Of a stretch of DNA of 64,000 bases, positions 44,854 to 64,000 are shown piece by piece. Below the pieces are notes generated by a model. That model saw nothing but the letters and a program-made list of their open reading frames with translations, was not told the origin of the DNA and ran no database searches. The position numbers were made by a program, and so were the translations under genes. Origin of the DNA: Leptolyngbya subtilissima AS-A7 (GTDB taxonomy: Bacteria; Cyanobacteriota; Cyanobacteriia; Phormidesmidales; Phormidesmidaceae). The stretch is taken from positions 310,001 through 374,000 of the forward strand of contig NZ_JAMPKY010000006.1 of the NCBI RefSeq assembly GCF_039962255.1, read 5' to 3'. Every line of letters begins with the position of its first letter. Within the stretch, counting starts at the first letter, position 1.

Positions 44854-46179
44854 ATGGTCGGCATGCTAACCCAAGCACAGAGCCTAGTAGAAAGGGCCAA
44901 GGCCCTCGGCATCAAGTTTTTTCTAGTTTCCTACACCGATTTGTTAGGGGGCACTCGAGCCAAGCTGGTGCCCGCCACTCAAATGGCTGCAGTAGAAAAA
45001 GACGGCGCGTTTTTCTGCTCTTTTGCCTCCAACCTGGGCCTGGGGCCGGAGGCCGCAGAAATCGCCGCGGTGCCTGACCCCGACTCGCTAATTCAGCTGC
45101 CCTGGGAGCCTACGGTGGGCTGGGTAGCCAGCGATGTGTACTTTGAGGGCGAACCCTTTCCGGCTGCCCCGCGAATGATACTCAATCGAGTGATCGATCA
45201 GGCAGCAGCGCTGGGCTACACCCACAAAACAGGGGTAGAGGCAGAATTCTTTTTGCTGCGGCAGACAGAGAAGGGCTATGAAATTGCTGACCCTAAGGAC
45301 ACTGCCGATCGCCCCTGCTATGACCAGCTCAACCTGATGCGGCAGTTTGACCTAATCTCAACTTTGGTCACCTATATGGAGGACCTGGGCTGGCAGCCCT
45401 ACCAGTGCGACCACGAAGATGCCAACGGTCAGTTTGAGCTGAACTGGACCTACAGCGATGCGCGGACTACCTGCGATCGCCACGTGTTCTTCAAATACAT
45501 GGTCAAAACCCTCGCCGAGCAGCGCGGGTTCACCGCCACCTTTATGCCCAAGCCCTTTAGCCACATCACTGGCAACGGCGGCCATGTCCACAACAGCCTG
45601 TGGCAGGGCGACACCAACGTCTTTGCCGAAGGTGCCGACAACGGCGGCCTTTCGCCCATCGGCTACAACTTTTTGGGCGGTGTCTTGGCCCACGGCAAAG
45701 GGCTGGCTGCTCTCTGTGCTCCCACGGTCAACTCCTACCGTCGACTGGGGGCCAGTACCACAGCCTCTGGCAGCACCTGGAGCCCCCGCTACATTTCCTA
45801 CGGCGGCAACAACCGATCGCACCTGATCCGCATTCCTGACAAAGGTCGGTTCGAGTGCCGCATGATCGACGGTGCCGTTAACCTCTACCTAGCCACCGCC
45901 GGCCTTCTAGCCGCCGGTCTAGAGGGCATCAAACAGCAGATTGACCCCGGCCAGCGCATTGACGAAAACCTGTTCGCCCGAGGCGACGAGTTCACCAACC
46001 TGCAAACCCTGCCTCACAATCTCTACGAGGCCATGGCCGCCCTCAAGCAAGACGCTCTGCTGATGGACATGATGGGAGAACTCGGTGCCAAGACCTTTCT
46101 AGAAATGAAAGCGAAGGAATGGAACGCCTTCAACGCCCAAATCACCACCTGGGAAATGGATCAGTACGTGAATATCTAA
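44854..46179 (+). CDS. type III-like glutamine synthetase family enzyme
   Basis: 441 residues with GS-type motifs: GVEAEFFLL (metal-binding Glu), HEDANGQFELNW, FMPKPFSHITGNGGHVHNSLW (the conserved His-containing GNGxH loop) and SPRYISYGGNNRSHLIRIP for ATP/Glu binding. The length and sequence fit the GlnT / gamma-glutamylmethylamide-type group rather than the ~470-residue GlnA. It could make glutamine or a gamma-glutamyl amide from methylated amines. Start ATG 44854 has GGAG 7 bases upstream. No NtcA site (GTA-N8-TAC) was found by eye in the 300 bases upstream. Confidence 0.87.
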   Translation: MVGMLTQAQSLVERAKALGIKFFLVSYTDLLGGTRAKLVPATQMAAVEKDGAFFCSFASNLGLGPEAAEIAAVPDPDSLIQLPWEPTVGWVASDVYFEGEPFPAAPRMILNRVIDQAAALGYTHKTGVEAEFFLLRQTEKGYEIADPKDTADRPCYDQLNLMRQFDLISTLVTYMEDLGWQPYQCDHEDANGQFELNWTYSDARTTCDRHVFFKYMVKTLAEQRGFTATFMPKPFSHITGNGGHVHNSLWQGDTNVFAEGADNGGLSPIGYNFLGGVLAHGKGLAALCAPTVNSYRRLGASTTASGSTWSPRYISYGGNNRSHLIRIPDKGRFECRMIDGAVNLYLATAGLLAAGLEGIKQQIDPGQRIDENLFARGDEFTNLQTLPHNLYEAMAALKQDALLMDMMGELGAKTFLEMKAKEWNAFNAQITTWEMDQYVNI

Positions 46180-46223
46180 AGGGCACGAACAAACAACCGT
46201 CTGCCCCTGGCATAGAGGTAGCT

Positions 46224-46240
46224 GGTGGGCAGTGCCCACC
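46224..46240. repeat. short palindromic repeat, GGTGGGCAGTGCCCACC
   Basis: A 17-base near-palindrome followed by CTACG, downstream of the glutamine synthetase-like gene. It resembles the CCCTACG-ended hairpins at 47047-47073, 62378-62401 and 63814-63838, all GC-rich stems next to an AC/TACG edge. Confidence 0.6.
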
Positions 46241-46292
46241 CTACGGTTGCCCAAATCAATTGCAGAGAAAAATAAGACGCTTGGCAAGGCAG

Positions 46293-46387
46293 AGGTTTAA
46301 ACCGATGATCCGTCAATCCTTTCCGTGAGGTGAAGGACGACGGAACGTCCTTCTCGTAGGGGTCTGGGGGGACCGAAATCCCCCCAG
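46293..46387. repeat. structured two-hairpin repeat, copy 1
   Basis: A block shared with 63907-64000. It starts with the palindrome GGTTTAAACC, contains the hairpin GAAGGACG/CGTCCTTC around ACGGAA (46332-46353) and ends in a second hairpin CTGGGGGGA/TCCCCCCAG (46364-46387). The first 64 bases align without gap to the second copy, with the central 40 bases identical. The second stem differs in sequence between copies yet pairs in both. It lies in the 536-base gap between the glutamine synthetase-like gene and the DUF1232 gene. Beyond it (46390-46715) I see no gene. Confidence 0.7.
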
Positions 46388-46715
46388 CGGCAAGCTTGGC
46401 TTTTCTCCCCAAAACTCTCTCAACGAGCAGTTAGTTAAGTCGTCACTTAGTCCCACTGCATCGCCACACAAACGCACCCCACGGCCCCTAATTTCACAGG
46501 AAAAAACCTTTAGCTTGGCGCGCGGCTGGCACTCGCAAGGCAGTCAATAGCAGGGGTATAGGGTGCAAGGTATGAGGGCTATTGCTGCACCCTATACCTC
46601 AGGTATTAATTCCCTCATCAGTTCGGTCGTCGCCTAGCTGGCGGGCGGCTATCCGCCACAGAGAGAACCAAGGGTTCCATGGCACCATAAAGCCATCGCA
46701 CTCAACCTTGGACCC

Positions 46716-47003
46716 ATGAACCCCTCTCCCCAAGCTTTCTACGACTGGTATAAGCGCACCCTTGATAATCCTAAGTATCGCTGGCTTCTGGCCGGTGCCA
46801 CGCTGTTATACCTGCTTAGCCCCATTGACATTTCTCCCGACTTCATCCCCATCATCGGCTGGATTGACGATGCTGCGGTAGCCTCTTTGTTCATTGCTGC
46901 CATGTCGCAGATTGCACTTTCAGGGTTGAATAACAAACGCTCTGGGCTCCAGGCCGACGCCCCCGAGACCGCTCACACCACCGTAGATGTCAACTATGAC
47001 TAA
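46716..47003 (+). CDS. YkvA/DUF1232 membrane protein
   Basis: 95 residues with the DUF1232 core: YKRTLDNPKYRWLLAGATLLYLLSPIDISPDFIPIIGWIDDAAVASLFIAAM, i.e. a first membrane helix, the family's SPIDLIPD-like motif (here SPIDISPDFIPIIG) and a second helix. A hydrophilic tail follows. DUF1232 proteins are small membrane proteins found widely in bacteria, and the function is unknown. The gene stands alone between repeats. Confidence 0.9.
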   Translation: MNPSPQAFYDWYKRTLDNPKYRWLLAGATLLYLLSPIDISPDFIPIIGWIDDAAVASLFIAAMSQIALSGLNNKRSGLQADAPETAHTTVDVNYD

Positions 47004-63813: not shown

Positions 63814-63838
63814 GGTGCATTGCTGGCGCGAATGCACC
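63814..63838 (+). repeat. hairpin GGTGCATT/AATGCACC after the ABC gene
   Basis: An 8-bp stem with a 9-base loop, 10 bases past the stop and followed by CTACG. It may act as a weak terminator; the CCCTACG edge matches the other dispersed hairpins in this window. Confidence 0.6.
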
Positions 63839-63906
63839 CTACGAACTACAGCCTGCTAGATTGCCTAGACAACCTAAAGTTTTTCATCAGTCAATTTGCA
63901 GAACAT

Positions 63907-64000
63907 AGGTTTAAACCGATGATCAGCTAGTCCTTTCCGTGAGGTGAAGGACGACGGAACGTCCTTCTCGACGGGGGTCTGGGGCCAACGAATTGGCCCC
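63907..64000. repeat. structured two-hairpin repeat, copy 2 (cut by the window end)
   Basis: Second copy of the block at 46293-46387, running into the window end. It has the same GGTTTAAACC palindrome, the same hairpin GAAGGACG-ACGGAA-CGTCCTTC (63946-63967), and a second hairpin GGGGCCAA-CGAA-TTGGCCCC (63981-64000) whose stem differs in sequence from copy 1 but pairs perfectly. Read on the minus strand this loop is TTCG in both copies. It lies about 100 bases past the ABC ATPase gene. Confidence 0.7.

Follow-up and report, generated by a model that had tools for sequence, protein, structure and literature searches.

The small dispersed repeats of cyanobacteria (Elhai 2008) are reportedly very small mobile repeats, much shorter than the repeat analyzed here. 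Bacterial MITEs with folding transcripts, such as RUP, NEMIS, ERIC, and Nezha, resemble this repeat in being short, non-coding, and intergenic and in forming stable hairpins, and its relatives share with them inverted ends and target duplications, as far as these elements are described in the available parts of two reports (PMC3733652, PMC10969869). The difference is that here the middle of the element is conserved across genera with covariation and the ends differ, and no such case was found in the same parts of these reports (PMC3733652, PMC10969869). Transcripts of MITEs fold and alter transcript processing or decay, according to the accessible text of two sources (PMC3733652, PMC3049150). 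The pneumococcal BOX elements, some of which are expressed, are likewise interspersed repeats of modular build for which a structured transcript is predicted, whereas their inverted ends pair together within the structure and the core described here folds alone (PMC3049150, in part); the terms covariation, compensatory, and pseudoknot are absent from that paper. The GTAG-tagged REPs of cyanobacteria are palindromic intergenic repeats from the same kind of genome, and they differ in being shorter, in having GTAG at the foot of the hairpin, and in being moved by a Y1 transposase (accessible part of PMC3733652).

The window, a stretch of 64,000 nucleotides from Leptolyngbya subtilissima AS-A7, was previously noted, from its letters alone, to contain a repeated block, and both copies were found where this sequence-only reading had placed them, at 46293-46387 and 63907-64000, with a run of 40 identical bases common to both. 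The unit conserved in the genus is longer than this block, because a conservation profile of 55 copies extends from about 67 nt 5′ of TTTCCGT to about 37 nt 3′ of hairpin 2, which places copy 1 approximately at 46253-46424 on the plus strand. The covariance model matched copy 1 at 46274-46405 (G000:C6:356274-356405, where G000 is the own genome), and copy 2, also on the plus strand, at 63888-64000, where it is cut by the window end, the match extending to 64020 in the genome (G000:C6:373888-374020). A separate palindromic repeat adjoins both copies, at 46224-46244 and 63814-63842, as well as many other copies; on the minus strand it is GTAGGGTGGGCACTGCCCACC-like or GTAGGGTGCATTCGCGC..GCAATGCACC-like, and it looks like a GTAG-tagged REP.

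The conserved core of about 73 nt consists of CCGY, an 8-bp hairpin whose loop pairs with CCGY, a G tract, and a second hairpin, and on the plus strand it has the form CCTTTCCGT-GAGGT-(hairpin 1)-TCGA-GGGG-TCT-(hairpin 2). In copy 1 the 5′ side of the pairing between CCGY and the loop, termed S1, is CCGT at 46323-46326, and its partner ACGG is located at 46340-46343 within the loop of hairpin 1, between the 5′ arm GAAGGACG (46332-46339) and the 3′ arm CGTCCTTC (46346-46353), all on the plus strand. The corresponding plus-strand region of copy 2 (63937-63957) contains CCGT at 63937-63940, the 5′ arm of hairpin 1 at 63946-63953, and ACGG at 63954-63957, and is followed by the 3′ arm CGTCCTTC at 63960-63967. 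Hairpin 1, GAAGGACG/CGTCCTTC, is thus identical in both copies of the window. On the other hand, hairpin 2 was correctly noticed before to differ in sequence with its pairing kept: in copy 1 it is CTGGGGGGA-CCGAAA-TCCCCCCAG (46364-46387, plus strand), while in copy 2 (63979-64000, plus strand, with the final 2 bases of the 3′ arm outside the window) GGGGCCAA pairs with TTGGCCCC. The classical stable tetraloop is cUUCGg, closed by a C-G pair. The minus-strand TTCG pointed out in the sequence-only reading is present in both copies, but its closing pair is not C-G, so it is not this classical tetraloop.

Pairs were counted in an alignment of 46 cores, which were picked to be diverse and were aligned without fitting to a structure. 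Eight of the 54 listed cores (L124, L054:1695, L126, L067, L122, L099, L138, and L134:1044) were omitted because they had long inserts or were partial or odd, and by eye CCGY/RCGG was kept in 7 of these 8 and lost in L054:1695. The data showed three covarying pairings, which were hairpin 1, hairpin 2, and S1, the pairing of the upstream CCGY with RCGG in the hairpin-1 loop. Standard pairs occupied 96.4% of the 920 pair cells, and the stems changed their sequence across genera with the pairing kept; hairpin 1, earlier taken to be invariant, covaries across the family too. Double changes were observed in 10 of the 20 pairs, with 110 double-changed cells versus 29 in shuffles (0/500 shuffles reached 110), and the covariation score was 0.369 versus 0.146 for shuffled alignments (0/500) and at most 0.116 for slid partners, although this shuffle test ignores kinship, and related sequences may exceed shuffles without structure. 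For S1, 98.9% of 184 cells were paired, and C-G was replaced by U-A in 5 of the 46 sequences, from the genera g14 and g18. A stretch after hairpin 1, suggested by some folds as a rival partner for CCGY, was rejected, as it paired in 64.3% of cells, no better than shuffles. S1 may be a pseudoknot or kissing contact, or an alternative state. Single-copy folds were modestly stable (z of −1.6 to −3.5). Long inserts in hairpin 1 break S1 in some copies (the second copy of L054, and L220). Extra hairpins of varying sequence were seen in the hairpin-1 loop in several genera (L015, L054, L220, L373), with RCGG kept in some only, and an optional insert of about 20 nt, GTAGGCCG..GCGCG..AGC, occurs at the same place between the hairpins, also in several genera (L011, L012, L013, L082, L167, L226). 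The variable stretch after GATGATC was considered as a guide that pairs with the upstream flank or with the downstream TGGCT and was set aside, since by eye it fits some copies and not others.

The repeat is not limited to two copies. A blastn search of the own genome (5.66 Mb, 18 contigs) with the block located relatives at 16 places (E ≤ 9e-11) together with one fragment (E of 1.5e-4), and a covariance model built from 48 copies gave 17 places, of which 16 are full-length (E ≤ 8e-20) and one is degenerate (E of 2.3e-5). In the order, this model matched 38 of 63 genomes, spread over 8 of the 14 genera, and a single genome had as many as 40 matches; the 38 comprise 20 of the 26 genomes of the window's genus, the own genome included, and 18 of the 37 genomes of other genera. 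Among 28 genomes, the matches of plain blastn with the block were confined to the window's genus. Core-bearing contigs of Nodosilinea nodulosa PCC 7104, Phormidium tenue FACHB-1052, and Tildeniella torsiva were among the matches listed, and the first of these strains has numerous copies. A pattern scan of genome contigs gave at least 120 stretches, and those from unrelated bacteria among the ones listed were treated as chance. Carriage by phages was rejected, because by eye the second hairpin was absent in both exact pattern matches in viral contigs. No long coding frame is common to the copies, and frames of 80-111 codons overlap some of them. The sequence-only reading had recognized no known element, and Rfam gave no family match: at the gathering threshold only two tRNAs were found in the whole window, and the best relaxed match in 46150-46500 had a chance-like E of 0.2. 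No description of the repeat was found in the titles and abstract openings of the papers listed by literature searches.

The evidence for mobility comes from other genera, where the core is contained in elements bounded by inverted ends and by target duplications of 11-14 bp, a length that presumably recalls the IS4 family. The ends are of at least three kinds, with the sequences TAGGGNTGATTC, AGCCCTGTCAAGGTG, and CTACGGTGTATGCA. In the genome G069 the core was found in 18 of 20 fetched stretches. The element there spans about 310 bp between TAGGGNTGATTC and its inverse (−132 to about +180 around TTCCG), flanked by 11-bp duplications at L161 and L164 and by shorter or less exact ones at L155, L163, L165, and L167; a TA duplication considered for these elements was dropped once the 11-bp duplications were recognized. 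The same TAGGGNTGATTC ends are found in the g19 genomes at −130 and at +156 to +158, with a 12-bp duplication at L138, while L142 of G069 has a third kind of ends. The core elements of G013 are 317, 407, and 514 bp long with AGCCCTGTCAAGGTG-like ends, the 514-bp one being a core unit that adjoins a 270-bp core-less element, and the end motif AGCCCTGTCAAGGTG has 26 sites in this genome versus 0 for the reversed control. Core-less elements of 270 bp share their ends with core-bearing ones in G013 (L399, L402, L405, L401), and one apparent hybrid was seen. The 14-bp duplications of G013 (L367, L402, L405), including GGGTGGGCAGTGCC and GGGTGGGCATTGCC, lie inside REP palindromes, which are the insertion target in this genome; thus repeats of the REP type both adjoin core copies and serve as a target. 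Insertion sequences that target REPs are known (PMC1525189, in part). A strict scan for ends and duplication, with thresholds that miss worn copies, gave scores of at least 19 in 10 of 81 copies outside the genus versus 2 for shuffled-partner controls, and L106 and L292, the latter a Curtobacterium pattern match, are probably in this group by chance. Between elements of different genera the core was 74-86% identical, while the arms were 45-60% identical, as compared to 47-51% for shuffled arms, with pairs that have a hairpin-1 insert set aside (two of these gave 53 and 56% for the core). No transposase was located between the ends at any of 30 DDE_3 or 11 DDE_Tnp_1 loci, and 14 stretches of G013 screened for an autonomous partner contained only end pairs of 270-295 bp.

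We propose, with a probability of about 0.55, that the repeat is a member of a MITE-like family in filamentous cyanobacteria, whose elements are short, non-autonomous, and built around the folded core, and in which the copies moved in trans, the core is selected as a folded strand, likeliest as RNA that alters transcript processing or decay, and the copies in the genus are mostly old insertions. The copies would be moved by transposases of host insertion sequences, with REP palindromes as a frequent target in one genome; the core would be transcribed by read-through from neighboring genes, and as a folded single strand, most likely RNA, it would alter transcript processing or decay, which could make the insertion tolerable. 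The part of this proposal held with the greatest confidence is that the repeat is a structured mobile element, and the choice offered earlier between selection on RNA and a mobile unit seems to be resolved by both, as covarying stems occur together with small mobile elements in relatives. An RNA role for the core is given slightly less than even odds, and altered processing or decay as its mechanism is tentative.

The alternative that best withstands the data, although we consider it unlikely, is that the structure is needed as single-stranded DNA or a cruciform for the mobility of the element, in transposase recognition or a replication-linked step, rather than as RNA. The mobile context in three groups of relatives is consistent with it, and G-T pairs, on which the strand assignment depends, are tolerated in single-stranded DNA as well. 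The non-Watson-Crick cells of the plus strand in S1 and hairpin 1 were 49 G·T, 6 A·C, and 22 others in 69 distinct motif-found cores, but the search motif favors G·T, since it fixes G for one partner in each of two S1 pairs and over most of the 5′ arm, and L142 and L218 were counted in two frames. Of the 49 G·T cells, 31 fall on a single S1 position and share ancestry; a subfamily whose register is shifted by one base accounts for 10 of the 22 others. Hairpins 1 and 2 together had, in the 109 distinct rows of the model alignment, 31 G·T versus 21 A·C, a modest excess, with A·C falling to 14 without the ill-aligned innermost pair. In each of the three stretches that were folded, the minus strand had the lower z. 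Hence the wobble counts lean to the plus strand rather than to the minus strand emphasized in the sequence-only reading, and the plus strand is favored as the selected one, not proved, because the excess is limited by the motif and by one position and the single-copy folds do not favor it.

The orientation of the copies to genes is also relevant to this alternative. Using frames called by a crude script, all 16 full copies of the own genome were found between co-directional frames, 10 in sense and 6 in antisense. Among 66 copies of the genus, orthologues included, 53 had co-directional neighboring frames, 10 had convergent ones, and 3 had divergent ones, as compared to 95, 22, and 49, respectively, of 166 control gaps (Fisher p of 9e-6 for the divergent-gap deficit), which fits removal from promoters. 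In G069 convergent gaps were the commonest (6 of 17 copies counted). Sense orientation to the upstream gene was seen in 41/66 copies (p of 0.06), and 22 of the 53 copies in co-directional gaps were antisense; the absence of a clear bias is the main point against a read-through RNA and agrees with a role in DNA. Against a role in mobility, the core is common to elements with unrelated ends, and the core-less elements of G013 with the same ends also carry target duplications, so that transposition can proceed without the core.

A further reading, also unlikely, is that the core is a previously undescribed structured RNA of a portable kind, which miniature transposons with unrelated ends have captured time and again because the element benefits, for example through protection of the host transcript or control of transposition. 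The multi-copy double-hairpin repeats of many other cyanobacterial families would then be its distant relatives. A shorter core model matched 72 of 388 genomes across the class; 40 of these belong to the order, and the matches in the remaining 32 are weaker (E of 1e-8 to 0.006). Among the stretches L439-L468, 29 of 30 (L447 was not at its match) show a related-looking double hairpin with G-rich 5′ arms, of the form CCCTTC..GGAGGGGG-(hairpin)-CGGGGG-(hairpin). Such repeats are often multi-copy, up to 32 per genome, and, judged by eye, some (L442) may have a pairing like S1 while others lack it. From this resemblance, homology of the core to the wider double-hairpin repeats is possible.

It is improbable that the covariation is mutational, with hairpin-templated correction and conversion between copies keeping the arms matched without selection. 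The orthologous copies at the L005 site in G000, G010, and G056 differ by whole-stem changes, which may be either compensatory change or conversion and are compatible with this explanation, as are the mosaic elements of G013. It does not account for S1, which covaries even though one of its sides is outside hairpin 1 and the other in the hairpin-1 loop, or for the unpaired letters GAGGT, TCGA, and GGGG, which are conserved across genera.

The copies in the window's genus could also be considered as a multi-copy family of small-RNA genes with their own promoter, unrelated to transposition, and we judge this slightly less probable again. No inverted ends with duplication were found in the genus by the strict scan (0 of 110 copies at score 20, with 19 used for the others), and direct repeats flanked 24/111 copies versus 20/111 controls, with no common duplication; for this reason the window copies are called MITE-related rather than MITEs, and the MITE-like part of the earlier description holds for the relatives, which have inverted ends and target duplications. 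In a search of seven genomes with the flanks of six copies, the sites of L002, L004, L005, L008, and L009 were occupied in several of them, some in up to five, which together with a conserved 5′ block, TTTAAACCGATGATC, in the genus would suit small-RNA genes. Empty sites were seen for L005 and L010 in G004 and for L002 in G011, and G011 has only the 3′ part at the L008 site; gain and loss are indistinguishable here because the site boundaries are ragged. Such gains or losses among species, the bounded elements in relatives, and the absence by eye of a T-run terminator after hairpin 2 are evidence against small-RNA genes, and the genus copies look mostly like old insertions that have either persisted or disappeared at shared sites. 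In G012 (L073 2965-4889) an inverted pair of copies, separated by about 1.5 kb, flanks an alcohol-dehydrogenase-like frame next to a glutamine-synthetase-like gene; the counterpart in the window, 46179-46716, has one copy and no such frame, and similar inverted pairs occur in G004, G007, G008, and G009. These pairs were rejected as the ends of a larger transposon, as the G012 pair encloses by eye an iron alcohol dehydrogenase-like frame, with no transposase recognized among the listed frames. Finally, a REP/REPIN moved by a Y1 (RAYT) transposase, in line with the REP-like label given earlier, is very improbable, because, even though there are two hairpins in many intergenic copies and GTAG occurs between the hairpins in some of them (L001 and the G013 copies), GTAG is not at the hairpin foot and is absent there in most aligned cores, the unit of about 180-400 bp is far longer than 20-40 bp, and the relatives have target duplications, which to our knowledge Y1 transposases do not make.

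A repeat family without Rfam coverage thus gains a covariance model and a naming handle. Miniature transposons are usually viewed as ends with arbitrary filling, whereas in this family the filling is conserved across genera and the ends differ. The conserved filling with compensatory change makes the question of whether MITEs contain selected RNA directly testable, and the pattern of pairing hints that the repeat may be a selected RNA or single-stranded DNA structure within otherwise selfish DNA.
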